Shown: in pieces, positions 1-17,736 of the stretch | Layout of the letters: the number at the start of each line of letters is the position of its first letter | Position numbering within the stretch: the first letter of the stretch is position 1 | IMG/VR virus record: IMGVR_UViG_3300007538_004429 | Span: 1-20,036 of that record | Length of the DNA stretch: 20,036 nt | From: a virus | Strand: one strand, 5' to 3' | Notes under the pieces: model-generated | Databases searched by the model: none | Told to the model about the DNA's origin: nothing | Seen by the model: only the letters and a program-made list of their open reading frames with translations | Program-made: the position numbers and the translations under genes

Positions 1-684
1 CACACAGTATGCCTGTTTAAGATCTGCCTCTAATCCTTCACCGCCTTGTGATCCACCCGATGTTAGGTTATCGCTCAATCTAATATTTTTTCCTTGAATA
101 CCCTGTGCTCCTTTGATTCCGCCATTGAGATTGCGTGGATGTGGCCGTATGATGATTTCTCTATCAGTGTATTTTCTAATCTCATTAACCGTGTGTTGCA
201 TCCATTCAGTAAATGATTTAAAACCTTGATTGTAGATTTCCACAATACTAGAATCACCTTCTTTTTGACCCATCAAGATAATTTTATCTCCAGGGCTGCG
301 CCAATCTTTTATTCGCAAGCCTGTAGTTCGCTCAAACTTTTGCCATCTATCAGGTGGTGAATTCTGGTTACCAAACACACCATCTGTCCATTTGTAACTG
401 TACCAACCTAATCGTTGGTATGTGCCTGCATACTTTCTAAAGTTTGGACTTTCTTGCACCAAAAACGGTTTGCCAGAATTTAAGATATATTCATATGGCC
501 CATTGCGATTTACTGTTGCAAATTTGGGTTTTAATAAATTTGTCTGTAAAAAAGCATCAGCTTCTTGTGCAACAGGATCGTCCACAGAATCTGCCAGTGC
601 ATAATCATCGCCGTGACTGCGAATACCTCTGGTTATGTGTTTTACTGCTTTAACACTTCCACGAATGCCCACCACGTTAATCAT
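1..684 (-). CDS. Capsule-synthesis-like glycosyltransferase, paralogue A (3' end cut by the window edge)
   Basis: The frame is open from the ATG at 684 to base 1, giving 228 residues of a longer protein. It belongs to the same family as four other genes here (1355-2269, 3185-3958, 4661-5593, 6808-7581). Shared landmarks are a DGVF segment (residues 101-104), KDWRSPGDKIIL (126-137), YTDREIIIRPHP (172-183) and DLKQAYCV at the cut, which aligns with the DDLNRAWC stretch of paralogue D just before its TYNS motif. The R-x-HP and later T-x-NS motifs recall capsule polysaccharide biosynthesis (KpsC/KpsS-type) GT-B proteins; that link is by motif only. The likely role is sugar transfer in glycan assembly. 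A ribosome site AAGGA lies 7 nt upstream, and the start forms an ATGA overlap with the stop of the methyltransferase gene before it. Donor and acceptor sugars are unknown. Confidence 0.72.
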   Translation of the reverse strand, partial: MINVVGIRGSVKAVKHITRGIRSHGDDYALADSVDDPVAQEADAFLQTNLLKPKFATVNRNGPYEYILNSGKPFLVQESPNFRKYAGTYQRLGWYSYKWTDGVFGNQNSPPDRWQKFERTTGLRIKDWRSPGDKIILMGQKEGDSSIVEIYNQGFKSFTEWMQHTVNEIRKYTDREIIIRPHPRNLNGGIKGAQGIQGKNIRLSDNLTSGGSQGGEGLEADLKQAYCV

Positions 685-1358
685 TCAACGATCCTTATAC
701 AACATTGATAAGAACCACTGATTGAGACAACTTCAAATGATCTGTCATATTTTTCAATCCATTCACACAGAGCTTTCCATTCACCTTCACGCCAGAGTGG
801 ATAAACTTTGTTTTTATCTGGTTTGTTGAAATAACACATCTCATCAAAAACAATAATAGTATTTTTTACGATATAATCGTTTAATTTGTCTAACACATAT
901 ATGGTAGATGAGTATAAGTCAGCATCTAAATGCAAAAATTTTACTTGCTGCATTGTGTTATTTTGTTCTAACCAAGGTTCCAAACTTTTATCAAAAAATC
1001 CCACAATCAGTTCAACATTAGAGTTAACTTCGGGAAGACTATTTCTAGAAAAATGTCCTTTTTTATGTTTAATATTATCAGGATCTGCTTTTTCTGAATC
1101 GGTCATGATCCAATCTTCGGGTAACCCTTCAAAAAATACATCGAATCCGTATACAGGTTGGTTTGGCATTTGATCTGCAATGAAATTAGTAGTCGATGCA
1201 GTATTAACCCCAAATTCCATAATTTCGCCAGGGATCGAGCATTGGTCTAGCGCATATGTTAGGTGCTGCATTCTTGCAACTCCGCCGCGTTCGCCAGCAC
1301 CAATTAATGTTGCATTTAAAAAATGCGAAATATCTATGTTATTTTTATCTACAATCAT
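681..1358 (-). CDS. TylF/macrocin-type O-methyltransferase
   Basis: This is a 225-residue class I SAM-dependent methyltransferase of the TylF/MycF (macrocin O-methyltransferase) type, a family that methylates sugar hydroxyls. Supporting motifs are PGEIMEFGVNTAS (residues 43-55, SAM-binding motif I), YGFDVFFEGLPEDW (70-83), FLHLDADLYSS (141-151, with the metal- and substrate-binding aspartates of the family) and IIVFDE (168-173). The frame continues upstream to a GTG at 1385. The ATG at 1358 is preferred because it makes an ATGA overlap with the preceding stop, like other junctions in this island. It sits between glycosyltransferase-like paralogues B and A, so O-methylation of a sugar in the same glycan is the likely job. 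The family call is fairly safe; the substrate is inference. Confidence 0.8.
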   Translation of the reverse strand: MIVDKNNIDISHFLNATLIGAGERGGVARMQHLTYALDQCSIPGEIMEFGVNTASTTNFIADQMPNQPVYGFDVFFEGLPEDWIMTDSEKADPDNIKHKKGHFSRNSLPEVNSNVELIVGFFDKSLEPWLEQNNTMQQVKFLHLDADLYSSTIYVLDKLNDYIVKNTIIVFDEMCYFNKPDKNKVYPLWREGEWKALCEWIEKYDRSFEVVSISGSYQCCIRIVE

Positions 1359-2269
1359 GTTATATAGTTTCTCATGTGTGACCACGCACTACCATTACTT
1401 AGCTCTTTAAAATTCCAATGGCTCATACAAATACGCTCAATCCATTGCTGTCTTTCAAAAAATTGGGGTGCTTCTATAGCCTTTATTTTAGTATTTGCAA
1501 CCGGGTGTGCCTGACTACGTTTTCCACCATCAACCGGATCAGTAACAAAAACCGGAATACCTTCAATAGCAGCAGCGACACCTGGGCTAGAATTATATGT
1601 TACCACACACCAGGCACGTTCAAAATCATCTAGTATGCTAGGCTGATTGCTGATTTCCCAGTTGCCCTGATTTTGTTGCAGGTATTCATTAGCACGTTTA
1701 TCACCTGGATGTGCTCTGACTAGAATCGGGCGATCAGTATGTTGCTTGATACTCTGAACTGTGTTGTGTAACCAATCCACGACAGCAAACCCATCCATGC
1801 TCCAGCCACCATTTCTTTGTGTGCATATCAATATATGCTTGCCAGGATGCCTCCAATCCTTTAGACTTATATTGTAATCACGTCTAATCTGCAACCAACG
1901 CTGTGGATCCGGATTATCCCAAAAATATTTTCCTGTGGTAGGAAATATTCCATCCATGCTATATCGATGGTATGCAGGAGTTTTGATACCAGTATAATTA
2001 AACAGGTTGCTATCTATGATAATGGTGTGACGATTATGTGTATTTTGTGAAACCTGTCTACGTAAACCTAGATGTTTTGTATCAGGACTATTTGCATGAA
2101 CCCATCCTTGTATGACACCAACATCTGCCTGTAATAAATCTCTTGAATTGTGTACAACACCGATGTCTCCAGCCGCATTTACACCGTCCGCAAATCTAAT
2201 GAGCATTTCTGCTTTTTCAGGATTCTTACGTGCGTTGGGTATCCCACCCAAATAGCTCACGACTTTCAT
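1355..2269 (-). CDS. Capsule-synthesis-like glycosyltransferase, paralogue B
   Basis: This 304-residue protein is a full-length member of the five-copy family. It shows DGIF (residues 106-109), YNISLKDWRHPG (132-143), HTDRPILVRAHPGD (177-190), ERAWCVVTYNSSPG (217-230) and EGIPVF (236-241). The R-x-HP and TYNSS-plus-small-residue motifs resemble the nucleotide-sugar-binding half of KpsC/KpsS-like GT-B enzymes. The N-terminal half is divergent, as expected if it binds the acceptor. An upstream in-frame ATG exists at 2293, but the start at 2269 gives an ATGA overlap with the pyruvyltransferase-like gene and a natural MKVVSYLGG N-terminus. The ribosome site is poor, so translational coupling is likely. 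There is no signal peptide or membrane segment, which suggests a cytoplasmic enzyme. The specific linkage cannot be predicted. Confidence 0.72.
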   Translation of the reverse strand: MKVVSYLGGIPNARKNPEKAEMLIRFADGVNAAGDIGVVHNSRDLLQADVGVIQGWVHANSPDTKHLGLRRQVSQNTHNRHTIIIDSNLFNYTGIKTPAYHRYSMDGIFPTTGKYFWDNPDPQRWLQIRRDYNISLKDWRHPGKHILICTQRNGGWSMDGFAVVDWLHNTVQSIKQHTDRPILVRAHPGDKRANEYLQQNQGNWEISNQPSILDDFERAWCVVTYNSSPGVAAAIEGIPVFVTDPVDGGKRSQAHPVANTKIKAIEAPQFFERQQWIERICMSHWNFKELSNGSAWSHMRNYIT

Positions 2270-3192
2270 GTTCTTTGTTTGATGATTTCCCAAAATTTTT
2301 CAGTGGCATTACAACACTCATCTAGTGCATTGTCGTATTGTTCAACGTCATCAATTATGTCTTGCCAGTCTGTACTGCTATTAATAAATGTTGGCTTGTG
2401 CTTCATGTAATTAAATTTACTACTCCAGGCATCTACTACAATAACTTTTTTGTTTAAAAGTGTCCCCCAGTATGCTCCGTGATAACTGTTGGTTATGATA
2501 GTGTTCGCACTGCCTAATAATTCAATAGTTTGCTCAATGTTGCTCCCTGAGTTAATAAATCTAGGCACGGATTCTGCACCAAAAGTCTTTATGAGTTGTT
2601 TCTTGTGCTCAAACCAAATCACATCATTACGCACAGTATATGTTTTTCTTAATGCCGGGTGCATGCAACTTGCACATGGTGCCCATTGGTATCCAGTGTT
2701 ATGATCTCTGACTCCCACTAGATCGTAATCAATTAGGTAATCCGGATATTCTAGATTCTGTGGTTTGATTTTTAGCGCCTTAGCATCAGAGTTGTTATGT
2801 CCTGCACCCCAAATAACTTTATATTCAGGTCCGTTGGGTATATTTGAGTAAGTGTCTTTAATTAATCTCTCAAACTCTTTAGTAAATTCTTTATGCATTT
2901 CGTCCAGAGATTGATCTGTCAGTTTCCAGCGCATTCGGAATAAACGTTTAAGTCGTACTCTATCAGGATGATCTGTTAAATCTTCCATGGCTTGGTTAAA
3001 ATTTGGATTGTCAATTAATCCCCCACCGCCAACAATCAGATTTGTATTCACAGGAAATCCTTTTTTGTTTAAATCGTCAATGTCAACTACGTCATATTCG
3101 TCATCATTCAAAAAATACTGTAATGGGTTAGCTGCCCAATCACCCACGTTGTTTTTGTCTGCACGATGTACTACTGTAAATTTTTTAGCCAT
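2266..3192 (-). CDS. Polysaccharide pyruvyltransferase-like protein
   Basis: These 308 residues carry the marks of the polysaccharide pyruvyltransferase family (CsaB/WcaK type): NNVGDWAANP (residues 14-23), LIVGGGGLID (52-61), VIWGAGHN (126-133), DLVGVRD (157-163) and ITNSYHGAYWGTLLNKKVI (233-251), the last being the donor-site S-x-HG signature. Known members add a pyruvate ketal from phosphoenolpyruvate to sugars of surface polymers, giving a negative charge. Some relatives in glycan clusters have not been tested, so the donor is inferred. The ATG at 3192 overlaps the stop of paralogue C by 8 nt. The gene lies between paralogues C and B, which fits a tailoring step on the glycan they build. 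Confidence 0.82.
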   Translation of the reverse strand: MAKKFTVVHRADKNNVGDWAANPLQYFLNDDEYDVVDIDDLNKKGFPVNTNLIVGGGGLIDNPNFNQAMEDLTDHPDRVRLKRLFRMRWKLTDQSLDEMHKEFTKEFERLIKDTYSNIPNGPEYKVIWGAGHNNSDAKALKIKPQNLEYPDYLIDYDLVGVRDHNTGYQWAPCASCMHPALRKTYTVRNDVIWFEHKKQLIKTFGAESVPRFINSGSNIEQTIELLGSANTIITNSYHGAYWGTLLNKKVIVVDAWSSKFNYMKHKPTFINSSTDWQDIIDDVEQYDNALDECCNATEKFWEIIKQRT

Positions 3193-3958
3193 ACCATTCT
3201 TCTAGTTTTTGTTTAGCACTACCATCAGTTAATTCATTGATATGAAATTGTCCATATGCTAAATGGCATGCCCATGCATACCGTTTATCGTTTGATGGAT
3301 AGTAAGGGTCTTCAATTTTACTCAGATCCTGTAGCCCGACGGGCTGAGCTGCATTAGGTGCTAATGTAAACACAGGAACACCAAAAAACACACTTTCTGT
3401 TGCTGCTACGCTATTAAATGTAACTAGCGCATGTACGTCATTACTTAGCGATTGTTCAAGCGTGTCTGTTAATCTTGCTATTCGTTGTTTGGCACGCTCT
3501 CTAACAACAACGGGCCTATCAGTGTATTTTTTAATTGTGTTGACTGTTTGATCAATCCACTGCTGCTGATTTACACCATAAAACTTGCAAGGTTTTTCAT
3601 CTGGTGCTGCAACAATTATTTTACTTCCGGTTTTCCAGGGATGTATTGCTTTATTAAACTTTTGAAACCTGTCTCCAGGTCGCTCAATGATATCTGTATG
3701 TTGTAGATTATTTTTAACAATTCTGTGCCAGTACTTCCAGGTACCTTCATTACCAAAGTATCCAGTATCCATATAATAAAACGTGCGGTTATCTTGCCAA
3801 CATCGTTTTATTATTTTGTGCTTTAGTATCCCACGTAGTACAATGGCATCGTTACTCTGGGCGTAATCAAACGTTTCGGTATCGGTTGGTACTGACTTGC
3901 AACCGCGTGCAAAATCATTAATGTATCTGTCTTGGCCATTTTTACTTAAAAATATCAT
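3185..3958 (-). CDS. Glycosyltransferase-like protein, paralogue C (HP-less subfamily)
   Basis: This is a 257-residue member of the five-copy family and the closest relative of paralogue E, which has the same length. Shared with E are the N-terminal Y-x-D-x-GYF-x-N block (residues 62-70 here), IIVAAPDE (114-121), YTDRPVVVRER (145-155), ALVTFNSVAATESVFFGVPVF (177-197), the LAP..(A)LQDLSKIEDPYYP block (199-221) and a C-terminal YGQF-x-(V/I)NE. The HP pair found in A, B and D is replaced by ER, so the catalytic or nucleotide contacts may differ. The ATG at 3958 overlaps the GT8 gene stop by 17 nt; no better internal start is seen. Function as a glycosyltransferase is inferred from family resemblance and neighbours. 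It could instead be a degenerate, non-catalytic partner. Confidence 0.65.
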   Translation of the reverse strand: MIFLSKNGQDRYINDFARGCKSVPTDTETFDYAQSNDAIVLRGILKHKIIKRCWQDNRTFYYMDTGYFGNEGTWKYWHRIVKNNLQHTDIIERPGDRFQKFNKAIHPWKTGSKIIVAAPDEKPCKFYGVNQQQWIDQTVNTIKKYTDRPVVVRERAKQRIARLTDTLEQSLSNDVHALVTFNSVAATESVFFGVPVFTLAPNAAQPVGLQDLSKIEDPYYPSNDKRYAWACHLAYGQFHINELTDGSAKQKLEEWYG

Positions 3959-4631
3959 GTTGCTCGCAGTATTCAGTTAAAATACGTTCGCGGTGCCATT
4001 CGCTACCCATAGGGGTATTAGCAAATTCGTGAAAACTTGGCGTACCTAATGTATAATGTAACAATTTAGCATCAGGGTTCACACCATACTCATCCGGTAA
4101 CCAGTTCCACTCTGCAGGTAGTTCGCCAATACGTTCATCTTTAATCCAGCTAAAGCGATGCAAGTGTGCGCCAGTTGCCTTTTGAATGTAATCTGGCTTT
4201 AACACTCTGTTAGGATGACTGTTACAATTCCAAAGTATAACGCTTGACCAGTTCTTGCGTGGATAATTTTCGTTTTTACTGCCAAGATACTTTGTGGTCA
4301 TCTTGGTTTCATAATCATGTTTGACTACCATCACGTCTTTATCCATCTCACGCAGCTCCCACAGTTTAACAATATCATCGCGCACAATCATATCGCCATC
4401 CATAAAAATAGCCCATCCAAGATAATCCATTAAGTGTGGGACAAGAAATCTACTGTAGATAAAATGGTTACTTCCATCTGTGTGCGTTTCCTTATAATCA
4501 TCAAACAAGTTCAATGCTAATGGAATAATCGATACTGGTTTGCTTGCATGTCTGATAATCGAATTAGCACACGTGTGATATGCTATAGCTTCTCTTGGAT
4601 CATATCCTATAAAAATTGGAATTGGTTTCAT
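3942..4631 (-). CDS. GT8-type (GT-A fold) glycosyltransferase
   Basis: A 229-residue protein of the GT8-like group, retaining glycosyltransferases that use UDP-sugars with a divalent metal. The N-terminus IFIGYDPREAIAYHTCANSI (residues 6-25) is the usual opening of phage and bacterial members. AIFMDGDMIV (74-83) holds the D-x-D metal site (DGD, 78-80). LLHYTLG (190-196) provides the late histidine that commonly completes the metal site. There is no membrane anchor. The start has a good ribosome site (AAAAGGA, about 6 nt upstream). The 29-nt gap to paralogue D is one of the few non-overlapping junctions in the island. Together with paralogues C and D it probably adds a sugar to a glycan or lipid-linked intermediate; which sugar is unknown. 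Confidence 0.82.
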   Translation of the reverse strand: MKPIPIFIGYDPREAIAYHTCANSIIRHASKPVSIIPLALNLFDDYKETHTDGSNHFIYSRFLVPHLMDYLGWAIFMDGDMIVRDDIVKLWELREMDKDVMVVKHDYETKMTTKYLGSKNENYPRKNWSSVILWNCNSHPNRVLKPDYIQKATGAHLHRFSWIKDERIGELPAEWNWLPDEYGVNPDAKLLHYTLGTPSFHEFANTPMGSEWHRERILTEYCEQHDIFK

Positions 4632-4660
4632 TTATATCCTTTTAGAGTCAATGTAATTAA

Positions 4661-5593
4661 TTATCTTGGCATACATTCTTTGAGCAAATTCCAAACATAT
4701 CCGCTGGAAAACTCATCTCCCTTCCATTGCTGAAATGCAATACGGTTACACCATTCTGATCGATCAAATTCCAAACTATCTTCAATCTGCAATATTGAAT
4801 CACCGCTAACTGGAGCAGCAACCGCACTTGAATCCAATGTTATGGTTGGAGTACCATATAACACACTTTCAACTGAACTGGTACTGTTGTACGTAATCAT
4901 ACACCAGGCACGATTTAAGTCGTCATATAAATCAGGCATTGTGGAAAACTCAATGTCTGAATGTTCTCGTTGTATGAAACGTTCACTTCTATGATCCAGT
5001 GGATGCGACCTAACAATAATTGGCCGATCTGTGTGCTGTTTGATATTGTCAATTACGCCTGACATATATTCTTTGTAATCGATATCATTATACGTCAGTC
5101 TGTTTAATGCTGAATCTGCTGCTACCTGAAGATTAATTAAAATAGCGTCGCCTCTGCGTTTCCAGTCGTGCAATCTTATGTTATATTTGCTCGATAATTG
5201 ATCCCATCTTCTATAACTAGAATCGTATGGAAATACGCCATCATCCATAAAAAAACTATTCCATGATAGTTTAATCCACATATCTTCAAACGGGACGCTA
5301 CCTCCAAAACCGCCATGCCTATTAGAATTAGATAATAACTGTCGTATAACAGGTGCCTCTCGTATTAATATAGGTTTGTTTAAACGCTGGCTTATTTCTT
5401 CAACGGCTTCGTAGATATAATTTGTTGGGCGTACCTTCTTTTTAATTCCGTTCTGTACAAAAAAGTCAAATTCTGATTTCTCAACATTTTCAAAATCGAT
5501 TGATTCAATACGATCATCTGTAGTGGTAGATATAATATTGTTAAACTGTTTAAGTTTTTTCCATTTTGGTTGTTTAACTATTATACCAATCAT
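4661..5593 (-). CDS. Capsule-synthesis-like glycosyltransferase, paralogue D
   Basis: This 310-residue protein groups with paralogues A and B: DDGVFPY (residues 117-123), YNIRLHDWKRRGDAILI (137-153), HTDRPIIVRSHPLD (187-200), DDLNRAWCMITYNSTSSVESVLYGTPT (224-250). An N-terminal stretch of about 100 residues is specific to this copy. A start four codons upstream (5605) is possible. The ATG at 5593 is chosen because it forms an ATGA overlap with the methyltransferase stop and has GGA about 7 nt upstream. The R-x-HP and TYNS motifs support a GT-B-like nucleotide-sugar-binding domain akin to capsule synthesis enzymes. Substrate is unknown. Confidence 0.72.
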   Translation of the reverse strand: MIGIIVKQPKWKKLKQFNNIISTTTDDRIESIDFENVEKSEFDFFVQNGIKKKVRPTNYIYEAVEEISQRLNKPILIREAPVIRQLLSNSNRHGGFGGSVPFEDMWIKLSWNSFFMDDGVFPYDSSYRRWDQLSSKYNIRLHDWKRRGDAILINLQVAADSALNRLTYNDIDYKEYMSGVIDNIKQHTDRPIIVRSHPLDHRSERFIQREHSDIEFSTMPDLYDDLNRAWCMITYNSTSSVESVLYGTPTITLDSSAVAAPVSGDSILQIEDSLEFDRSEWCNRIAFQQWKGDEFSSGYVWNLLKECMPR

Positions 5594-6195
5594 TCCCAGT
5601 TCCATTCAGTAATTTGTCCATCGAATGGCTCTGTTACAAATTCTGGTAGCCAAGGCTTCAAACGTTTTATATCACCTGAATCATATTTTAGCTTAGGTAA
5701 ATCAAAATCGTCAGCCTGCGCTATAACTGTGATGTTATAATTATACGTCTTAATATGTGCATTCTTACAGTTAAATCCTGCTAATACTAAGTTATATAAT
5801 AAAATACCTGCATTCCAAAGAGTTACATGACCGCCGACAATATTATGTTTCAATGGCGGAACAGTAATACACGTATATCCACCTATACGAGTTTCAGATC
5901 TGACTTTTTTAAGAAACTGGTTTACATTTAACTGATGTTCAAGCACGTGACTAGCCCAGGTTAAATCTTGTGGCACAAACGTTAGATCATTATAAAATCC
6001 TTTGGCGTCCATCGGATAGAATTCATCATTGATATCTGTTGACGTTACAATCTTGCCTGCTTCCAAGAATTGTTTTGAGTGAAAACCGTCGCCAGCCCCA
6101 ATATCTAATACAGTATGAAAATCTAAATTGTTAATACAAAATTCAAGACCGTCTTGTGCCCGTGATTTCTTTCCTTTTGATTTCTTAGTTTTCAT
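5590..6195 (-). CDS. SAM-dependent methyltransferase (class I)
   Basis: A 201-residue class I methyltransferase. Motif I is TVLDIGAGDGFHS (residues 28-40), the acidic end of strand 2 is TSTDIND (51-57), and SHVLEH (82-87) is the post-motif seen in many Methyltransf_11-type proteins acting on small molecules or sugars. IGGYTCITVPP (104-114) is the usual strand after the SAM domain. The first 14 residues are lysine-rich. The start makes an ATGA overlap with the stop of the sulfotransferase gene. Its place between the sulfotransferase and paralogue D suggests it modifies the same glycan; the methyl acceptor cannot be told. Confidence 0.75.
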   Translation of the reverse strand: MKTKKSKGKKSRAQDGLEFCINNLDFHTVLDIGAGDGFHSKQFLEAGKIVTSTDINDEFYPMDAKGFYNDLTFVPQDLTWASHVLEHQLNVNQFLKKVRSETRIGGYTCITVPPLKHNIVGGHVTLWNAGILLYNLVLAGFNCKNAHIKTYNYNITVIAQADDFDLPKLKYDSGDIKRLKPWLPEFVTEPFDGQITEWNWE

Positions 6196-6818
6196 CTTTT
6201 ACTGTTTTCCCATAAATCAAAATCAGTGGCATAATACTGTTCAATCTTAGATATTGTTTGTTGGTTAATCGCTGGCGTCGTGATATTGTCAGTAGTATTA
6301 AATCTATACAATTGAAGAGTCAAATTTAATGTTTGGTTTACTTTATTTAATCCTTGTTCAAAATTCTCAGTTGTAAATAATATACAGTTTTTAAAATCAT
6401 CGATGTGCTTAACAAACCAACTCTGTGAGCGTAAATGAACATTTCGATCTTCTTCTGACATATCGTTGATCAAATCAACAAAATAATCTAGATTTTTAAT
6501 GCCATTGCTAGCAATGCCATTGACCACAATGTTTTGTTTCTTACCTTGTGTGATATCTTTGAATGTTGATATCAATCGTTTAACTGGATCTCTAAAATGT
6601 ATCACTGTAGGTAACTTGTTTTGTGCTGGAGAAATATATGTTAAATATTTTTTATATTTTTTATACCAATCAATGTCCCAATTGATGTCTGATTCACTAA
6701 TGATTTTTTGTTCCAGCCAGACGCTAGTTTTGAAACTACTTGAACCATTTTTTGGAATGCCAATATAATCAAAATTCAAATCTGTGTATCTTATAATACA
6801 GTGTTCTTTAGTTTTCAT
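6192..6818 (-). CDS. Sulfotransferase-family protein
   Basis: A 208-residue protein with both PAPS-binding elements of carbohydrate sulfotransferases (Sulfotransfer_2-like): the 5'-phosphosulfate loop YIGIPKNGSSSFK (residues 18-30) and the 3'-phosphate motif FRDPVKRLISTF (75-86). The C-terminal IEQYYATDFDLW (about residues 192-203) matches the family's usual ending. The protein is shorter than most eukaryotic members but within the range of phage and bacterial ones. The start has a strong ribosome site (AAAGGAG) and overlaps paralogue E by 11 nt. The likely reaction is transfer of sulfate from PAPS to a sugar hydroxyl, adding negative charge to the glycan made by the neighbouring enzymes. PAPS would have to come from the host; no PAPS synthesis gene is visible here. 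Confidence 0.83.
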   Translation of the reverse strand: MKTKEHCIIRYTDLNFDYIGIPKNGSSSFKTSVWLEQKIISESDINWDIDWYKKYKKYLTYISPAQNKLPTVIHFRDPVKRLISTFKDITQGKKQNIVVNGIASNGIKNLDYFVDLINDMSEEDRNVHLRSQSWFVKHIDDFKNCILFTTENFEQGLNKVNQTLNLTLQLYRFNTTDNITTPAINQQTISKIEQYYATDFDLWENSKR

Positions 6819-7581
6819 AACGCTCCTTTAAGATATCGCGCATGAATCCGTTTTCAATTTCGTTTACAGTAAATTGTCCGTAACTTAGACTTTTGATCCA
6901 TTCCCAACGATTATCTGGATAGTATGGCTCTTCAATCTGGCTAATGTCTTGAAGTGCCATTAAATCGCAACAACTTGGTGCCAAGTTAAACACCGGAACG
7001 CCTTCGCATATGCTTTCGATACAGGCTAAACTCTGATGTGTAATTATGGCCCAGGCATCATGTAAGTAAGGTGTTAACGGATCGTCGCCGCGGTCTTTGC
7101 GTGTTTCTTTGAAACGATAAAATATTTTTCTGTCTGTATATTTGCGCAACTCGTGCTTTAGCCAAAATACCCATTCATATTCATTTTTAAATTCGGTGTA
7201 ATACTGAACTGGAAATTCATCTGGGGCGACTATAAGAATATAATCACCAGTCTTGCGCCAATCTTTGAGTTCTACATGATATGACCGTATGCGTTTGTCG
7301 TCGCAATCAAATATTTGTGACTCTTGGAGATTGTTTAAACTGAATCTGAATGTACTGGCTGCTTTAGTATTAAAGAAATACCCTTTATCGTAATGTAAAT
7401 ATTGTCCATGTTCGAATACCTGATGTTGATATTCATTGTATTTCCACGGACCAACGGTGAGATATGTTGATTTTAAATCAACTGTTGCAGTTTCTTCAAC
7501 AGGAATACTCTTGCTTATATGCGGGATCAGTTTGGCAAGAACATTATGCGGACGTTCAAAATATTTTAATTTCTCAAACAT
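6808..7581 (-). CDS. Glycosyltransferase-like protein, paralogue E (HP-less subfamily)
   Basis: This 257-residue protein has the same length as paralogue C and is its closest relative. Landmarks are YDKGYFFN (residues 64-71), VELKDWRKTGDYILIVAPDE (103-122), YTDRKIFYRFKE (148-159), AWAIITHQSLACIESICEGVPVF (176-198), LAPSCCDLMALQD (200-212), ISQIEEPYYPDN (213-224) and a late YGQFTVNE. As in C, the R-x-HP motif is lost. The asparagine of TYNS is also changed (THQS), so catalysis is uncertain. The frame could begin one codon earlier with TTG, but the ATG at 7581 is the better start. It is the first glycosyltransferase-like paralogue in the transcript, 18 nt after a methyltransferase gene. Confidence 0.62.
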   Translation of the reverse strand: MFEKLKYFERPHNVLAKLIPHISKSIPVEETATVDLKSTYLTVGPWKYNEYQHQVFEHGQYLHYDKGYFFNTKAASTFRFSLNNLQESQIFDCDDKRIRSYHVELKDWRKTGDYILIVAPDEFPVQYYTEFKNEYEWVFWLKHELRKYTDRKIFYRFKETRKDRGDDPLTPYLHDAWAIITHQSLACIESICEGVPVFNLAPSCCDLMALQDISQIEEPYYPDNRWEWIKSLSYGQFTVNEIENGFMRDILKERYEN

Positions 7582-7599
7582 CAATAAAACAATGTCTTT

Positions 7600-8355
7600 T
7601 TAGTCTTCGCCGAGCCAGCGAAGACTACGATCTAACCATTCGAGTACAAGGTCTTGCTGTCTAAGATACCCATATGAATTAATACTGTTAACAGCACTTT
7701 CCGGAAGTAGACCAGTCTCGGCCAAATCGTACCAGCGTGTAGTTTTTGGATCCATTGGATTAATATCTGATTTATATACAATAGCGCGAACCCATGGATC
7801 GCCTATATCTTTTTTCATAAACGCACAATCAAATCCAGATACTGATAGCATATGCATCAAGCTAACTGGAGTATAATGAAAGTATTCATAATCATATTGC
7901 CTAGCTGTAAACCTATTGAACACTAATTCAGTAGTTGATGGCACAGTCAAACAGAGCATTGCACCATCTGTCATTATATCATACCATGTTCTAAGTGTTT
8001 CTAATGGATTGACCGAATACTGAAACGCATTATTGCACCAAATAACATCAAAACCTTTCTGTTCTTTGTTAAGAGAATATGTTTCAAAATCTCTGCGTTC
8101 ATATACAATATTCTTGTATTGTTTTGCTATTGGCAAATTGGATTTTAAATCAACGCCAGTGCATTTAATATTTAATGGAATTTTGTTATCATCGTCATCT
8201 AAAATGTAAGCGTTTGCCCACCATTCTAAATCAAGACCACTGCCGCACCCCATATCAACAAGGGTATCGATACTCTCCATAAAACTGCTGTACTGCCACA
8301 GCAAATCTAATGTTTCAAGTGCATGTTCGTGAGCTTCTTGATCGTTTTTAAACAC
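7600..8355 (-). CDS. SAM-dependent methyltransferase (class I), GTG start
   Basis: A 251-residue class I methyltransferase: motif I TLVDMGCGSGLDLEWW (residues 31-46), strand-2 acidic residue in CTGVDLKSN (65-73), and the motif FDVIWCNNAFQYSVNP followed by an LRTWYDIMTDGAMLCLTVPS block typical of Methyltransf_11/23-like enzymes. The start is GTG at 8355, fixed by a strong ribosome site GGAGGA 5 nt upstream and an 8-nt overlap with uvsY. It is the first gene of the glycan island and directly follows the recombination genes, so its substrate could be part of the glycan pathway or something else. I cannot assign the acceptor. Confidence 0.77.
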   Translation of the reverse strand: MFKNDQEAHEHALETLDLLWQYSSFMESIDTLVDMGCGSGLDLEWWANAYILDDDDNKIPLNIKCTGVDLKSNLPIAKQYKNIVYERRDFETYSLNKEQKGFDVIWCNNAFQYSVNPLETLRTWYDIMTDGAMLCLTVPSTTELVFNRFTARQYDYEYFHYTPVSLMHMLSVSGFDCAFMKKDIGDPWVRAIVYKSDINPMDPKTTRWYDLAETGLLPESAVNSINSYGYLRQQDLVLEWLDRSLRWLGED

Positions 8356-8800
8356 TCACATCCTCCATCCCTGCTGTGCGTAACTTAACAATATGTCCCA
8401 TTTGCCATTGTTTTGAATCAAGACCCTTCATGATACCTAACCAGCGATTGCGCATCAATGCTACCTCGTTAATAAGCATTTCCATATCAATTACTTCGCT
8501 TTCGCCATCTACATACTTTTCAGCATCTCGACTAGTTAACGCACGAGCATAACCTTCCAAATATTTTTGAAAGTGTTTGCGTCTAATCTTGCGCAATTCA
8601 AGGTTAAGATAGTTTAGTACCGCTTCAATCTCTTGTAACTGATTAAACCGTTGTTCAGTAACACCCGGCAATAATTTAATATTTTGCTCTACATTACCGC
8701 CGATGCGAACTTCTCGTTTGGCTTCCTGTAGTTCATCGTTATAATAATCAATGAATGCAGGAAGTTGAGAAAGATCTTGTGTTACTTTATTGTACCACAT
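8348..8800 (-). CDS. uvsY: UvsY-like recombination mediator
   Basis: A 150-residue protein, close to T4 UvsY (137 residues). It has the family's helical, charged layout: a basic stretch LRKIRRKHFQKYLEGYARAL around residues 68-87, then YVDGESEVIDMEMLINEVALM, and the characteristic C-terminus LGIMKGLDSKQWQMGHIVKLRTAGMED, which parallels the T4 segment ending IKHIQDMRAFE. In T4, UvsY loads UvsX on single-stranded DNA and displaces gp32 at replication and repair intermediates. Here it lies two genes after uvsX in the same transcript, as expected for partners. It starts 2 nt after the stop of the 85-aa gene. No clear ribosome site is seen, so translation may be coupled. The assignment rests on recognised C-terminal similarity plus context. 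Confidence 0.85.
   Translation of the reverse strand: MWYNKVTQDLSQLPAFIDYYNDELQEAKREVRIGGNVEQNIKLLPGVTEQRFNQLQEIEAVLNYLNLELRKIRRKHFQKYLEGYARALTSRDAEKYVDGESEVIDMEMLINEVALMRNRWLGIMKGLDSKQWQMGHIVKLRTAGMEDVSV
8361..8366 (-). promoter_or_regulatory. Strong ribosome binding site deciding a GTG start
   Basis: The minus strand reads GGAGGA, 5 nt before a GTG at 8353-8355, inside the last codons of uvsY. The only nearby ATG is followed at once by TGA, so the GTG is the real start of the methyltransferase gene. Confidence 0.75.
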
Positions 8801-8802
8801 GA

Positions 8803-9060
8803 TTAATAGTCGTCGTTGTCGTCATAAAATCCATAATCATCATCGTCATCCAGATCATTTGAAATGAATGATTCATGATTATCAGAATACTCTGCAAGAC
8901 TTTTGATAATATAATTATCGTGTGCAACGTCTGCCATTTCGCTGGCATTCATACCGTTTTCAATTAAAACTGCAACAAAATCATCTGCTGCCTGTTGGAA
9001 TCCTCCACTAATATGTGGACGCAATGCTTCCCAAATTTCCATAACTATATCAGGACTCAT
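8803..9060 (-). CDS. Small protein with Asp-rich tail, between uvsX and uvsY
   Basis: An 85-residue protein of unknown function. The first ~60 residues look helical and ordered (SPDIVMEIWEALRPHI, then FQQAADDFVAVLIENGMN); the last 17 are nearly all aspartate, tyrosine and asparagine. I have the impression that similar proteins accompany uvsX in marine T4-like phages, but I cannot verify this here. The frame extends to an ATG at 9102 inside uvsX, which lacks a ribosome site. The ATG at 9060 is preferred: it overlaps the uvsX end by 11 nt and follows a purine-rich AGAAGAAG stretch. Its position suggests a role with the UvsX-UvsY-gp32 machinery. A DNA-mimic or protein-docking role for the acidic tail is speculation. 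Confidence 0.7.
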   Translation of the reverse strand: MSPDIVMEIWEALRPHISGGFQQAADDFVAVLIENGMNASEMADVAHDNYIIKSLAEYSDNHESFISNDLDDDDDYGFYDDNDDY

Positions 9061-10192
9061 ATTCTTCTTCTGCTCCAAGACTTTCAATTTCTTCAGACTC
9101 ATGGTTATGATCTGCTAAATTAGCTGCTGCATCCATTTCAAGAGCAACATCGTGGTTACTTATCTGTTCTTCAGAAAAAGCAAAATCCTTCATCAGGCGA
9201 TCCAGAACACCATCATCATTATTTTCCCAGGCCTTACGGAAAGCAAGCACTTCTTCACCAGTAGAACGCTCCACAAAACGCAAACGGTTACCTGACTTGG
9301 TCAGCAATCCTTTCTTTTCTGCTAAATCAACTAGTCCTGAATATGGGTTCATTCCTGTTTCATATGGGATCTTGACTTGTACGGCTTCAAACGGTTTAGC
9401 GTAGCGTGTCTTCATTACCTTACATGCAGCACGGATGCCTTGTACATCAGAAGTCTTATTACCATCCTCATCTTCTTTGAGCTTCAGTTTACGCATCGCT
9501 ACCACAATCGAACTCGCATAGATAAAGCCCTGACCACCCGAAATCTTATCGTCTGGATCAAACATGTCTTGTGATGCATATGTGTGATTAGTTGCTACAA
9601 GTCCGACATTATAACTACCGAACATGTTGACACAGTTGCGCACAAGTGCTGTTAATGCTTTGGGTTTGCGACCCAGGTCACCTTTGAGGTCGCCTTTATC
9701 GAACTGATCAATATCTGTTGGTGTCAACAACATGCCCAGAGAATCAATTACAAATAGTACTTTAGGTCTCTCATCTTCTGGCATTGTCTTATAATCTTTC
9801 ATGAACATTGATACAGTTTTGGCTACATCATCGATCATGCTCATGCTCAGTTTCATTAATTTTTCTTCAGATGTATCAACACCCAGAGCGTGCAACCATT
9901 GTTCGTCAAGTGCATTTTCTGAATCAATCAGTACAACAAAAATTCCTTGATCTTGCGCATGTTTGACAATATTACCAGAAACAAAATATGATTTACCTGC
10001 ACCGGATTCACCAGCAAACACAGTAACTTTCCCCATGGGGACGCCTTTATTAAAATCTCCTGAAATTAGATAATTAAGTGCATAATTGCCTGTTGAAATC
10101 CAATCAGTCGGGTCATTGAACCCAATGCTAAGTCCGTCAATTGACTTTGTAATGTCTTTACGGAATTTGCTCACGTCAAATGGTTTAGCCAT
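9050..10192 (-). CDS. uvsX: UvsX RecA-like recombinase
   Basis: A 380-residue RecA-family strand-exchange ATPase, close in length to T4 UvsX (about 390). Walker A is GESGAGKS (residues 61-68), followed by the catalytic-glutamate region LIDSENALDEQW (88-99), Walker B VLFVIDSLGML (145-155), and the DNA-binding loop regions around 160-175 (DIDQFDKGDLKGDLG) and 215-225 (KISGGQGFIYA). The C-terminus (about 340-380) is acidic, as in the family. It catalyses homologous pairing for recombination-dependent replication and repair, working with UvsY and gp32, both encoded nearby. The start has an AAAAGGTGA ribosome site and lies directly behind a consensus promoter. It is the first gene of a train that runs to the left edge. 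Confidence 0.95.
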   Translation of the reverse strand: MAKPFDVSKFRKDITKSIDGLSIGFNDPTDWISTGNYALNYLISGDFNKGVPMGKVTVFAGESGAGKSYFVSGNIVKHAQDQGIFVVLIDSENALDEQWLHALGVDTSEEKLMKLSMSMIDDVAKTVSMFMKDYKTMPEDERPKVLFVIDSLGMLLTPTDIDQFDKGDLKGDLGRKPKALTALVRNCVNMFGSYNVGLVATNHTYASQDMFDPDDKISGGQGFIYASSIVVAMRKLKLKEDEDGNKTSDVQGIRAACKVMKTRYAKPFEAVQVKIPYETGMNPYSGLVDLAEKKGLLTKSGNRLRFVERSTGEEVLAFRKAWENNDDGVLDRLMKDFAFSEEQISNHDVALEMDAAANLADHNHESEEIESLGAEEEYES

Positions 10193-10215: not shown

Positions 10216-10244
10216 ATTATATAAATTTAATTGCAAATTGTCAA
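10216..10244 (-). promoter_or_regulatory. Consensus sigma-70 (early-type) promoter for uvsX and the genes after it
   Basis: The minus strand reads TTGACA (10239-10244), a 17-bp spacer (10222-10238) and TATAAT (10216-10221): both hexamers and the spacing are exactly consensus. The predicted transcript start is near 10209, 17 nt before the uvsX start. The -35 box overlaps the stop codon of the methyltransferase gene at 10241. Just downstream, TATAATACTATT differs from the extended T4 late-promoter sequence by one missing A, so dual use is conceivable but unproven. Confidence 0.85.
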
Positions 10245-11095
10245 TATTTCTGGTAATCCCAGAAACCGTTTTTATAGTTAGGATAACATGTTTTGTTTTC
10301 ATTCCAGAATACTTTAATCATTGCATTTGCATTTTTGATATAAAGACGAGGCGGCTCTGGCCAATCATACAAAGCACTTACAGATGGACATGGAATACCA
10401 TTAAAATATATGTCATTATCAAATACTATTGTTGCTTGATTAACATTTCTCAAATCAACCATGAATTCCACTGGTTCTGAAGAATTATCAATTGTGACTG
10501 AGAATATTCTGTTATGAATACCATATGGTTTTATGAAATCAAATTTGTTTAACTGTTCTATTAAACCAGCCGATAGATCGTTTCTGTTATCATTGATTAT
10601 TTTACTCGGATTATAATCATAAAACACACTATCGTGTATTCCTTCATAAATGTATGCAGATACTGACCAAGAATCTGGGATTGACTTAACAGAATTACCA
10701 AATAATGTTTTTGAATGTGTCAAAAACTGCCTCATCTTTAAATTATTTTGAAATTCATCGCCAATTCGCTCACATAATAAGATGTCAACGTCTCTTGGAA
10801 CATCATTCTCAGATAAACTTAAAAAATCAGTAGTCCATACTTGAAATTTGTTCTCAAAACCTAGATTTTTTAAAATTTCCTGGGTCATTTTAACTCTGGA
10901 TGATCGAATATCAATACCATAGTAATATGCGGCGCCAGCTTCTAGTGCCAATGATGCAAGAATACCGATTCCGCAACCAATTTCAAAAACCACTTTGTCT
11001 TTGACTGTTTTTAAAAAAATCTCTTTATACCAATTGTTTCGTGGTATATCATTGAGAAATGTTAATGCCGTTTTGATTTCTGGGTGTCTAAACAT
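10241..11095 (-). CDS. PRMT-like SAM-dependent methyltransferase
   Basis: A 284-residue methyltransferase with the order and spacing of protein arginine methyltransferases. Motif I is VVFEIGCGIGILASLALEAGA (residues 35-55), with YGIDIRSS after it (59-66). VDILLCERIGDEF (103-115) sits where PRMTs carry the first glutamate of their double-E loop. A beta-rich C-terminal half follows (after about 135), as in the PRMT barrel. The second loop glutamate is not at the usual +9 position, where there is asparagine; an acidic DE lies at +4/+5. So arginine methylation is uncertain and another acceptor is possible. The ATG at 11095 shares its A with the TAA of the preceding gene. It lies between gp32 and uvsX but ahead of the uvsX promoter, so it belongs with the cargo genes after the gp32 terminator. 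Confidence 0.72.
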   Translation of the reverse strand: MFRHPEIKTALTFLNDIPRNNWYKEIFLKTVKDKVVFEIGCGIGILASLALEAGAAYYYGIDIRSSRVKMTQEILKNLGFENKFQVWTTDFLSLSENDVPRDVDILLCERIGDEFQNNLKMRQFLTHSKTLFGNSVKSIPDSWSVSAYIYEGIHDSVFYDYNPSKIINDNRNDLSAGLIEQLNKFDFIKPYGIHNRIFSVTIDNSSEPVEFMVDLRNVNQATIVFDNDIYFNGIPCPSVSALYDWPEPPRLYIKNANAMIKVFWNENKTCYPNYKNGFWDYQKY

Positions 11096-12015
11096 TATAT
11101 TAGGTTCTCAAGGTAATCACCACTAAAGTATCGATCGTAATTATATTCAATAGTCTCTTGTTCTACCAAATATAAGTCTGTCCAATCATGGACCGACAAA
11201 TTAGAAAATTTTAAGATCATTTCAATCAATCGTATTAAACGGTGTATCGGATTAGTTATTTCATCAAATGAATAGTCAAATATTTTATCATATTTCTTAA
11301 ATCCATAAAATGTTTCCAGATTTTTGTGCCAGGTTGGCTGTGCATAGAACACAAAAAGTCCTCTGGTAACGATGCTTAACAAAAACTTTTCTGAATAAAA
11401 TGGATAATAACTTACCGGAATTGTCTCTGATGAGACATTTACAAATGATCTAGTTACAATGTTTTCCAATACCTGTAGATTATTTGTATGACTGAACTGT
11501 TGATAATTTAAACTAATAATTTTATTGTTAAAATCACTGGCTGAATCCACAAAAAATTTATCGTAGACAGAATTTCCGGCCAGTAGTTCAACATCACCAA
11601 TAATCTGGTCCCACGAAAATTGAAAATTTTTAGTACAGGTATTTTTGTTAAACAGTCCTGTTTTGTTTAAAATTGACAGTAGAAGACGGCGCCCAACATT
11701 GTGTGCGCCATTAAAACTACACAAAAAATTATCAAATTTAATTTCAGGATGAATATGGTAATTTCGATAAAATTCCATGCCACTCCAGAATGAATATTTA
11801 AACTCTAAATTTTTGTAATTCTGTCTTAATACCGTATCAATGGGAAAATCAAGATACACTAATCCTGTTACGTCATGTGCCCTTGCATATTCGTCAACAC
11901 GATCTAAAATTTTATTTTTGCCATATGCATAAAATCCACCAATGTGGTCCTCTAATCGCAGAGGAAAAACATATTCACGTGCAGTCAAATATTGTTCAAC
12001 TAATTGATCGTTCAC
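11095..12015 (-). CDS. Fucosyltransferase-like/glycosyltransferase-like protein, GTG start
   Basis: A 306-residue protein without a firm family. Two blocks recall a glycosyltransferase-like group in phages and surface-glycan clusters: FLCSFNGAHNVGRRLLLSIL (residues 97-116), and ETIPVSYYPFYSEKFLLSIV (197-216) followed by GFKKYDKIFDYSFDEITNPIHRLIRLIEMI (238-267). The second block has the 'SEK-K-x-G...F-D-SFD' layout seen in FUT-like enzymes. The frame runs upstream to a TTG at 12030 and beyond, without ATG. The GTG at 12015 is chosen because it forms a GTGA overlap with the stop of a 23-codon gene that has a strong ribosome site. Function in sugar transfer is a modest-confidence inference, supported by other glycan genes nearby. 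Confidence 0.6.
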   Translation of the reverse strand: MNDQLVEQYLTAREYVFPLRLEDHIGGFYAYGKNKILDRVDEYARAHDVTGLVYLDFPIDTVLRQNYKNLEFKYSFWSGMEFYRNYHIHPEIKFDNFLCSFNGAHNVGRRLLLSILNKTGLFNKNTCTKNFQFSWDQIIGDVELLAGNSVYDKFFVDSASDFNNKIISLNYQQFSHTNNLQVLENIVTRSFVNVSSETIPVSYYPFYSEKFLLSIVTRGLFVFYAQPTWHKNLETFYGFKKYDKIFDYSFDEITNPIHRLIRLIEMILKFSNLSVHDWTDLYLVEQETIEYNYDRYFSGDYLENLI

Positions 12016-12083
12016 TGTTTCTTTAAACAATAAAGCAAGTTGCCAATAGCAATAAATTCTAAAATAATTAACAATTCTATCAT
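12012..12083 (-). CDS. 23-residue hydrophobic peptide with strong ribosome site
   Basis: A short frame starts with ATG at 12083, 6 nt after GGAG (12090-12093). It encodes 23 residues: MIELLIILEFIAIGNLLYC followed by LKKQ. Residues 3-19 are almost all hydrophobic and a basic tail follows, so it could be a single membrane-spanning micropeptide. Its TGA overlaps a GTG start of the next gene (GTGA), so it may instead be a leader peptide that couples translation. It lies just after the U-tract of the gp32 terminator. No homologue is known to me. The strong ribosome site and the stop/start overlap are the evidence; expression is unproven. Confidence 0.5.
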   Translation of the reverse strand: MIELLIILEFIAIGNLLYCLKKQ

Positions 12084-13285: not shown

Positions 13286-14140
13286 TTATTTTTTATTTGG
13301 CAATTTATCCCAGATAAATTCAATATCAATATTGCGAGACATCCACCACTCTTTTGTCATTTGCTTATCAGATAAGAAACACGTTGTGAAAATACCTTTA
13401 TTTGAACCGCTGGGTTGCGGAGGACAATAAAAAGATATTGGAGTTTGATTTAATATTTTTTCTTTGAACTGTTCAATGAGTTCCCATTCACTAACACTAA
13501 AGCGTGTGTCAAATTGAATATTCTTATGAATTTCTAAAAAATCATTACAGTGCAATTTACTAACATAACTCCTCAATTCATTAAGAGTCCATTTATCAAT
13601 GTCTCTAAACGGAACACCACTAGTAGCAACACATAATTCAGATGTCATCCTTATTGGCATCTCAACGTTTAGTGGTTGATAAGGGATCTTTAATATATAT
13701 TCCAGGTATTTGGCTTGTTGACTACTAACATCACCCGGACCAGGTTCTTGAACTGTTAAAGGTTCTCCAATCCATTTTGTAACATAACATGGGGTAAATT
13801 TATTATCAGGCAACTGTTCAAGAAACTCCACATCACCGTCAGTAATAAAGAACTCATCAAAATCTACAACTGTGTCAATATATAATTTGATCATTTGTTG
13901 TCGTAACCATCCGTCACCTTTAAACATTGTTAATAAATTTAATGTTTGGTTAGTTGGAATTACTTCTACACCGTAAAAAACTTTACAATCGTCAATATAT
14001 CCATTCCATGTAAGATTGCTGATATTATCTGCTATAACAGTTATGTTAGACTGTGGTGAGATCTTTTTTATTGATTCAATTGCAAGTTTAGACAATAAAA
14101 AATGACCAGGGTATGTAAGTAGTACTATGTTATTTCTCAT
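13286..14140 (-). CDS. GT-A-like glycosyltransferase (DUF6492-like)
   Basis: A 284-residue protein that looks like the DUF6492 group of putative GT-A glycosyltransferases. The N-terminus NIVLLTYPGHFLLSKLAIES (residues 4-23) is the Rossmann-like opening. WLRQQMIKLYIDT (78-90) precedes FDEFFITDGDVEFLE (94-108), with a D-x-D metal site (DGD, 101-103). Later come TSELCVATSGVPF and FSVSEWELIEQF. An in-frame TTG lies three codons upstream of the chosen ATG (14140); neither has a good ribosome site. It sits alone between the terminator of the 1172-aa gene and the gp32 promoter, with no promoter of its own visible. It probably acts in the cytoplasm on a surface or virion glycan; donor and acceptor unknown. 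Confidence 0.7.
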   Translation of the reverse strand: MRNNIVLLTYPGHFLLSKLAIESIKKISPQSNITVIADNISNLTWNGYIDDCKVFYGVEVIPTNQTLNLLTMFKGDGWLRQQMIKLYIDTVVDFDEFFITDGDVEFLEQLPDNKFTPCYVTKWIGEPLTVQEPGPGDVSSQQAKYLEYILKIPYQPLNVEMPIRMTSELCVATSGVPFRDIDKWTLNELRSYVSKLHCNDFLEIHKNIQFDTRFSVSEWELIEQFKEKILNQTPISFYCPPQPSGSNKGIFTTCFLSDKQMTKEWWMSRNIDIEFIWDKLPNKK

Positions 14141-14165
14141 GTTAGACAATTTGGTAAATCAGGAA

Positions 14166-17200: not shown

Positions 17201-17736
17201 GTAAACGGTAATTTAAAACGTTCGCCTTCGGCATTTTCAACAAATAATTTATCAATAGCTCTCCACCGCTGATCGCCTTCTTCAATTGCTTTACTGTGTA
17301 CAATCTTTAGTCGTGTTGTTCCTGGCTTATTATTATAGCTAGTGTGTTTGGATCCATTCCAACCCTCAAACAACCCTTCATTGATAGCAGCCATGCCTTG
17401 CATGCTATACTTTAATTTGTTTAAATTTTTTGGTGTAAACGTTAATAAACTACGTGTGGCAAATGTTTTTAATTGATTTAAAAAATCATACCAAATATTT
17501 TTATCAGCAGGATCCATAGTTTTACCAATATTATCGCCAAAATAAACTTCAAAGTTACTCTCATCATCGAGCAATATAATTACAGTCCCGTAATTATTAC
17601 GATTTGCTTCAAATTCAAATCTGAACATAACGGCATCAGACGGCGATATAACCGATTTACCCTTTTTATCCAGGGTTTTAACATTGAAGTCTTTGCTGAT
17701 TAATAAATTAAAAAGATCAATTGCTGTGCTATCCAT
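14218..17736 (-). CDS. Large uncharacterised late protein (1172 aa)
   Basis: I do not recognise a named function. The N-terminal ~120 residues look like a folded domain (VMFRFEFEANRNNYGTVIIL, then YFGDNIGKTMDP). The middle is acidic, rich in Glu, Asp, Lys and Gln, and low-complexity in places. Near residues 998-1004 is a DLDKDGN stretch, a D-x-D-x-DG calcium-loop-like motif. Residues 1029-1073 form a very basic helix-like block (KREKYVKGMKKSKEDFKKRYG, ending EVMYATATKMAKE), a motif I associate with large proteins of marine T4-like phages. There is no signal peptide or clear membrane segment. It directly follows gp17 with its own late-promoter-like box and a terminator behind, which suggests a virion, scaffold or injected protein. 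In T4 the neighbours of gene 17 are gp16 and gp18; this protein resembles neither. Confidence 0.8.
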   Translation of the reverse strand: MDSTAIDLFNLLISKDFNVKTLDKKGKSVISPSDAVMFRFEFEANRNNYGTVIILLDDESNFEVYFGDNIGKTMDPADKNIWYDFLNQLKTFATRSLLTFTPKNLNKLKYSMQGMAAINEGLFEGWNGSKHTSYNNKPGTTRLKIVHSKAIEEGDQRWRAIDKLFVENAEGERFKLPFTTLVGGRAMARHVAEGGTPYDVFGQHITEMVREANILSKFVRTTKSITENDDAEQYEVVAAGRDRYQTVRNRLKSLAGKRGYNAYKESWNPATLEQDSAIVEALRGSFITKSVPAQIEEALPYIAQNIQPTDTKESTMKEFDQFANWAENVTEGTWAIPDDEAKIKELKDILAKPLPVGTDASNATEILYDVIGDDELFDSLAALAEDDPEADARPVIEHWLEMYTDSHPGLEDLADRILGGNDELEFDEAADVGARGMNKYGMSAIKTAQGFFALLNGKVVAGPFNNIEELKAYQEQELNNDVNEQLDIDTGEEQRKAERDHMLEMNAWRKLAGMQEKVYEDFSAFQEPQQQVEEGYSDTPLLDREDYLEKSKALYDMMINPEFQDEKTQQLIQDRINRLNDEARKMGIIEMTEQERASKLNNNILDELNASDLGKEGVDWFAPSDTEPYDPERDDPRDDPNYGFDRKPTKPQPTIAPGATKTQEGNAFSGALEKAKASGKAEFEVDGKRYKVEEVDAGKFGQQDDELGQGKNTDPSQIVPGHEGTKDEKLEEAPGDEQLPPGYSRVGPKGILVGPSGNLSNWRDPNMDPDYWARDNMTRFDTDADNEWDEIENWLTSGSYKAGNDLRRSMMLKKYGLDQGVTPEKLAKARAKADAIKKAAQDKEDTFYKDMEIARILGRDAGSTADYERNRAETEKEIASLRKNAGLATSIKATPLSKTGSKGAVNIGQGWSDQMDIDDLDRVSAKYGTSPASDQTAALAHQEREFAPGSDEAWDQYVAKHGSKSKVPTTRKMGMDVMDLGLKGESKVSEAGKPDYLDLDKDGNKKEPMKKAAQDAEKKGDKELDERSLTKGEEKKREKYVKGMKKSKEDFKKRYGKRGEEVMYATATKMAKESEGATDVFGKGIYESLTELENDLDMELGHGITATSQLDNKPVDLIEPEEISTTDIAVVAPIEEPKEKNLGDKIADKGMELSATIDAALADIKRLAGMGN

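Follow-up and report, generated by a model that had tools for sequence, protein, structure and literature searches.

Islands of lipopolysaccharide (LPS)-type glycosyltransferase genes are already known from phages. The pelagimyophage host recognition cluster and the LPS cluster of cyanophage P-SSM2 are hypervariable glycosyltransferase islands of T4-like marine phages and are rich in GT8 genes (PMC7029224, PMC7824862). Retaining beta-Kdo (3-deoxy-D-manno-oct-2-ulosonic acid) transferases, among them KpsC (GT107), the N-terminal domain of WbbB (GT99) and KrkA (GT140), use a nucleophile Asp in a QXXXD motif, the His of a (K/R)XHP motif and a general-base Glu; in WbbB, the general-base Glu is followed by an Arg at +5 (E158/R163) and the nucleophile is D232 (PMC9587256, PMC10148158, PMC12887879). 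Here, we describe a gene island in a 20,036-nt stretch of virus record IMGVR_UViG_3300007538_004429 (hereafter, the window). Positions 1-8355 of the window hold eleven minus-strand genes. Five of them are paralogous glycosyltransferase-like genes (A to E), and between each two paralogues lie one or two genes for unrelated enzymes. Based on predicted structures, we consider it fairly probable that these paralogues form part of a distant offshoot, carried mainly by phages, of the retaining beta-Kdo glycosyltransferase superfamily (GT99/GT107/GT140 fold).

The family resembles KpsC, WbbB and KrkA in its predicted fold, and the QxxxD motif, the (K/R)xHP motif and the Glu with an Arg at +5 are also found in paralogues A and D (PMC9587256, PMC10148158, PMC12887879). 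Compared to those enzymes, however, the island family is barely detectable by sequence, consists of single modules of 250-320 aa, is phage-encoded and sometimes fused to GT8, and occurs as four co-resident subtypes, three of which lack the nucleophile. Like a phage host-recognition or LPS island, the window island combines several glycosyltransferases with sugar modifiers and is hypervariable between core genes. The pelagimyophage cluster is found between VrlC and gp14, accompanied by tail-fibre genes, whereas the window island lies between uvsX and uvsW and is dominated by one Kdo-transferase-like family, which the accessible parts of the pelagimyophage and P-SSM2 reports do not name. A block of Pelagibacter phage Mosig EXVC030M (Mosig_00183-00191) similarly has a sulfotransferase between two family members, a GT8 gene upstream and methyltransferases beside them, but it occupies another genome position, is made of other orthologue groups, and its sulfotransferase is not detectably related to that of the window by tblastn. 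In Caulobacter phage CcrPW (gp134-gp137), which is a giant phage, a pair of family members precedes GT8 and an FkbM methyltransferase; unlike in the window, the members are directly adjacent and sit beside tail-fibre genes. In the open-access literature (subscription journals and preprints being outside the search), we found no description of phage Kdo-type transferases, nor of this family's fold placement, four active-site types, GT8 fusion or slot-wise exchange. Hundreds of marine phage contigs bear the family without useful annotation.

Predicted fold and active-site types

Paralogues D (positions 4661-5605, minus strand) and E (6808-7584, minus strand) were modelled with AlphaFold2 (pLDDT 92.4 and 93.8, respectively). 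When the D model was compared to the PDB with VIA-align, the best 15 matches were all retaining beta-Kdo transferases, with Z scores of 16.2 for KpsC, 13.5 for WbbB and 12.0 for KrkA, compared to 10.7 for the first unrelated protein. The top 25 Foldseek matches of D belonged to the same transferase group (best E 2.8e-8). The E model matched KpsC (Z 12.6) and WbbB (10.3) ahead of the first unrelated protein (8.9), with KrkA lower at 8.6. A KpsC-like fold is predicted for D, and the same fold for E. An earlier note on this DNA had proposed comparing the paralogues with KpsC-type GT-B folds; the comparison was positive, with KpsC the best match of both models, and the structural prediction covers D and E. 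At the level of sequence profiles, the support is slight but in the same direction: of 47 QxxxD-type members, seven were matched by the Pfam family Capsule_synth (KpsC/KpsS family; best E 1.7e-5) and ten by DUF6716, named 'putative glycosyltransferase'.

Paralogue A (1-684, minus strand) is cut by the window edge. The near-identical contig IMGVR_UViG_3300022200_000090 (45,480 bases) completes A to 306 aa and continues beyond it with two glycosyltransferase-like genes, then genes for an FkbM-like protein and a methyltransferase, then a sixth paralogue and finally one further glycosyltransferase-like gene. The incomplete state of A and the sixth copy correct the description in the earlier note. 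The shared core that the note proposed also held only in part: TDR is present in all five paralogues, but DWR is replaced by PWK in C and by DWK in D, and the TxxS motif of A lies outside the window.

A (orthologue group 33) and D (group 30) keep ExxxxR, QxxxD and RxHP, i.e., the published catalytic residues. In D these residues are E83, R88, Q160, D164, R199 and H201. The QxxxD motif reads QKEGD in A and QVAAD in D, and the Glu with its Arg at +5 is E78/R83 in A and E83/R88 in D, as assigned from alignment and spacing. The E-to-R spacing and QxxxD are as in WbbB (E158/R163/D232), and the D-to-H spacing is 37 in paralogue D versus 33 in WbbB. Every one of the 192 members of the family alignment has R199 (D numbering), and each of the 55 members that carry D164 also carries E83, Q160 and H201.

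The other copies depart from this pattern in different ways. B (1355-2293, minus strand; group 26) has QRNGG at the QxxxD position and retains RxHP. The sixth copy has QHRSS and also retains RxHP. In C (3185-3958, minus strand; group 10) and E (group 0), the corresponding segments are PDEKP and PDEFP, and RxR or RxK stands in place of (K/R)XHP. Column 83 is Asp in B, C, E and the sixth copy. The family can thus be divided into four active-site types, one bearing the nucleophile (QxxxD/RxHP; A and D), two nucleophile-less types with the HP motif (QRNGG+HP in B, QHxxS+HP in the sixth copy) and one without the HP motif (P....+K/R; C and E). These motifs suggest that A and D act as retaining, double-displacement Kdo-type transferases. 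Because the nucleophile is missing in B, C, E and the sixth copy, the term Kdo cannot be extended to these copies, which should use a different mechanism or another donor. The subtypes form a natural set on nucleophile loss in a double-displacement glycosyltransferase and on the function that results.

Origin of the paralogues and gene order of related islands

B, C, D and E are true homologues (pairwise blastp E from 4e-40 to 1e-10) and A aligns with them, which bears out the common descent proposed in the earlier note. The window copies are 50-75% identical to their best orthologues in other phages, compared to 25-37% between siblings. In a FastTree phylogeny of 192 non-redundant members, the orthologue groups are nearly always single-copy per locus. 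Orthologues closer than siblings, together with single-copy groups, indicate that the duplications are old and shared, and the comparison indicates that islands draw their members from a common pool. The tree agrees with the earlier description of diverged paralogues; it does not agree with the idea of recent local duplication with insertion, which is ruled out by the best matches of B, C, D and E lying in other phages.

The genes interposed between the window paralogues, all on the minus strand, are a TylF-type O-methyltransferase (681-1385; Pfam PF05711, 37 bits, cut-off 23), a polysaccharide pyruvyltransferase-like protein (2266-3192), a GT8-family glycosyltransferase (3942-4631; Pfam, 32 bits, cut-off 24.3), a class I S-adenosylmethionine (SAM) methyltransferase (5590-6195; PF08241, 25.8 bits, cut-off 21.2) and a sulfotransferase (6192-6818; Sulfotransfer_2, 35.8 bits, cut-off 22, with PKNGSSS and RDPxxR motifs). 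A second class I SAM methyltransferase (7600-8355; PF08242, 39.2 bits, cut-off 30) forms the 5' edge of the island. The pyruvyltransferase-like gene falls slightly below its Pfam cut-off (22.7 versus 25.3); the Pfam family was matched by all seven homologues of the gene that were tested (best E 1.6e-7). The cluster of the window sulfotransferase contains the window phage and near-identical contigs only. The eleven genes lie on the minus strand, at the places and in the order that the earlier note gave, and no two window paralogues touch. In random order, the chance of no contact would be 0.045 for five of eleven genes and 0.075 for six of 17 in the full island, which is weak evidence for a pattern that was spotted post hoc.

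Loci were collected from IMG/VR with the family profile and dereplicated to 58, of which 52 have at least two family members. A directly adjacent family pair was present in 40 of the 52 islands, and 56 of 137 consecutive family-member pairs were in contact. The islands share a frame that begins with uvsX, a 150-aa gene, a variable 5' block, a nucleotidyltransferase-cupin gene and GT8, and continues with family members in recurring order, a block that in many islands runs in the other orientation, a final family member and uvsW. Between uvsX with the conserved 150-aa gene and uvsW, the island is fixed in position and hypervariable in content. A typical island has about one member per active-site type; for the QxxxD type, the number ranges from none to two. 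The slot between C and B was empty in 26 of 43 islands and otherwise held the pyruvyltransferase-like gene (seven), another paralogue (six) or GT8 (four). The window layout is one extreme of a variable arrangement, and strict alternation, a tempting organizing rule that the adjacent pairs and variable slots refute, is local to this phage. The earlier observation was in this respect partly confirmed and its interpretation partly supported: a modified-glycan island with several diverged paralogous glycosyltransferases holds up, and alternation as a principle does not. Slot-wise swapping provides a concrete map of phage glycan diversification.

The earlier note had also suggested transferase-plus-decorator cassettes, in which every paralogue would move with its own modifying enzyme. 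The gene order in the window fits this idea, and the pyruvyltransferase-like gene immediately precedes a paralogue of group 24 or 26 in all seven dereplicated islands that have it. However, that gene is an optional occupant of its slot, the neighbors of TylF change nearly island by island (different paralogue groups, or GT8), and in one locus (L071) the E and D orthologues are separated by 23 bp where the window has a sulfotransferase and a methyltransferase. Tandem paralogues with decorators elsewhere were what the note itself had named as refuting its proposal, and the adjacency counts refute cassettes as a general rule. Variable slots and shifting decorator partners show that the interposed enzymes are facultative; decorators move independently of the paralogues, and we regard cassettes as highly improbable.

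GT8 is the sole stable partner found for the family. A GT8-like N-terminal part is fused to a family C-terminal part in proteins of 549-625 aa in 18 of the 58 loci, and of 32 separate GT8 genes, 26 lie immediately upstream of a family member. The window GT8 is homologous to the N-terminal part of the fusions and shares 17 bases with the beginning of the C gene. The earlier note had counted this stable partner among the separating enzymes. In another locus (L064:9152-12627, plus strand), two fused family proteins of one orthologue group follow each other, the clearest recent tandem duplication that we saw.

Two further enzymes were observed in related islands. An HldE/TagD-like nucleotidyltransferase fused with a mannose-6-phosphate-isomerase-type cupin (L095:8507-9304, plus strand) has homologues in 63 loci and takes a fixed spot before GT8 or the family genes in most islands; it was not found in the island of the window. 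Between the island and uvsW of L089 (5404-6945, minus strand) lies a B12-binding radical SAM protein that resembles families of ribosomally synthesized and post-translationally modified peptide (RiPP) enzymes and P/C-methyltransferases and is possibly an additional decorator.

Proposed product and competing explanations

The island probably builds an acidic, decorated glycan on host LPS or on the virion. In the proposed mechanism, A and D would transfer Kdo or a related ulosonic acid from a cytidine monophosphate (CMP) donor by double displacement, as WbbB and KpsC do; the Asp would take the sugar, the His-Pro would hold the CMP phosphate and the Glu would activate the acceptor. The nucleophile-less subtypes would make other linkages by a different mechanism or from other donors, GT8 would contribute a hexose, and the methyl-, sulfo- and pyruvyltransferases would cap the chain. 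The product would be an acidic oligosaccharide with one transferase per linkage, and exchange of single genes in the slots would alter its structure. The host LPS core would be the likeliest target, the receptor being changed during infection, and the virion would be nearly as likely. Taken as a whole, a hypervariable glycan-assembly locus with a Kdo-transferase-like family, its activity and target being predicted, is the best explanation and one we judge somewhat better than even.

Genes for Kdo supply occur in related phages. KdsA (above the NCBIfam curated cut-off) and an adjacent KdsB-like cytidylyltransferase lie downstream of uvsW; among 80 viral KdsA loci, uvsW is in the flanks of 54 and a family member is within 10 kb in 40, and KdsB adjoins KdsA in 65 of 74. 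KdsA has been reported earlier in a marine viral genome (PMC5332604). The two genes track a sister clade, whose islands end in group 19. If A and D are indeed Kdo-type, these phages would encode acidic-sugar chemistry known from Gram-negative capsules, and the sister clade additionally encodes activated-sugar genes.

Several results weigh against a Kdo-type glycan locus. The Capsule_synth matches are weak, WbbB comes up at no better than E 0.32 in a PDB profile search, and the same search with a QxxxD-only alignment gave chance matches only, without WbbB. The nucleophile never varies among the known retaining Kdo transferases, and three of the four subtypes are without it. KdsA and KdsB were not found in the examined flanks of the window's own clade (group 17), so that the window phage would need CMP-Kdo from its host. 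Nor do the two genes follow the QxxxD subtype, since several KdsA-carrying islands have no such member; the clade (group 19 versus 17) decides. These findings on KdsA limit the support for Kdo without removing it. Lastly, a simple hydropathy screen of 532 island genes (those that the outermost family members of islands enclose) revealed no clear multi-span protein that could be a membrane flippase, polymerase, transporter or ligase. The phages therefore seem to be without a full export or polymerization system, and how their glycan would get to the host surface is a weak point of this reading.

The missing nucleophile would also fit a general GT-B family that uses ordinary UDP- or GDP-sugars and has Kdo-like motifs by coincidence, and unrelated GT-B folds reach Z scores of 9-10 against the model. 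However, the catalytic residues always occur together (55 sequences), and the closest structures to both models are Kdo transferases, which makes a general GT-B family rather unlikely. That no clear membrane enzyme was found among the 532 island genes speaks for the virion as the target. Soluble enzymes would then act in the cytoplasm on proteins of the capsid, tail or fibres, and the variable coat that results would alter adsorption or shield the particle. The tail-fibre neighborhood of the CcrPW members would fit such a role, and virion glycosylation is established in mycobacteriophages (cited in PMC12619734). In contrast, the window island sits amid DNA-metabolism genes and not structural genes, relatives carry Kdo and heptose-type nucleotidyltransferase genes that suggest LPS chemistry, and an acceptor protein was not identified; host LPS as a target likewise has precedents, in the pelagimyophage and cyanophage clusters (PMC7029224, PMC7824862). 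Virion decoration is, on this evidence, a real contender with a chance somewhat below even.

The same enzymes might alternatively hypermodify the phage DNA, in the manner of the T4-type DNA glucosyltransferases. DNA glycosyltransferases are carried by T4-like phages. Virus glycosyltransferases with a role in DNA hypermodification are also known (cited in PMC12619734). However, none of 14 related records (one of 337 kb, most of them fragments) has a gene of the thymidylate-synthase family, to which the dCMP/dUMP hydroxymethylases belong, and the sulfo-, pyruvyl- and FkbM/TylF-type decorators together with KdsA/KdsB better suit surface polysaccharide chemistry. DNA hypermodification is disfavoured accordingly and appears very unlikely. 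Returning to a Kdo-transferase-like glycan locus, a more far-reaching version of it is tentative and, to us, doubtful: one family on the Kdo-transferase fold would supply four co-resident types, each island taking about one of each to make an acidic glycan specific to the phage, with CMP- or related sugar acids as building blocks. Such combinatorial glycan writing would be unlike known cellular capsule loci and would include a switch between double and single displacement within the family.

Genomic setting and neighboring genes

Phage core genes flank the island, with UvsX, a gp32-type single-stranded DNA-binding protein and terminase on one side and UvsW on the other. In the window, the conserved 150-aa gene (8348-8800, minus strand), which borders the island on the uvsX side in 68 loci, and the UvsX-like recombinase, a flanking core gene (9050-10192, minus strand), lie next to the 5' edge. 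The nearest relatives of the large terminase subunit (TerL) are PA5oct-type Pseudomonas jumbo phages (53%), and those of UvsX are Vibrio phage 2.275.O and other jumbo phages (up to 68%). Related records are as large as 335 and 337 kb, which suggests that the source of the island is probably a T4-like jumbo phage.

A cellular origin of the family was also considered and rejected. In 100 genomes of one bacterial phylum, a search with the A3 profile found the family in one metagenome-assembled genome (MAG) only (contigs C57 and C77), and the island from that MAG has the phage flanks gp32, uvsX and uvsW. A search of a plasmid collection gave one weak match, and a Capsule_synth search in the same bacterial phylum yielded no cellular yardstick. 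Two contigs of a Marinimicrobiota MAG bin (L095 and L097; PBPT01000082 and PBPT01000016), the larger of 335 kb, contain gp32, uvsX, the island, uvsW, KdsA and KdsB, the region being on two contigs; this is apparently a jumbo phage sitting in a bacterial bin.

Further along the window, three minus-strand genes of 284, 311 and 287 aa (10241-12030 and 13286-14149) lie amid core genes and have no PHROG match; the first resembles a SAM methyltransferase through a VFEIGCGIG motif. An acidic protein of 1172 aa (14218-17736, minus strand) adjoins the terminase, and its N-terminus matches a virion structural PHROG.

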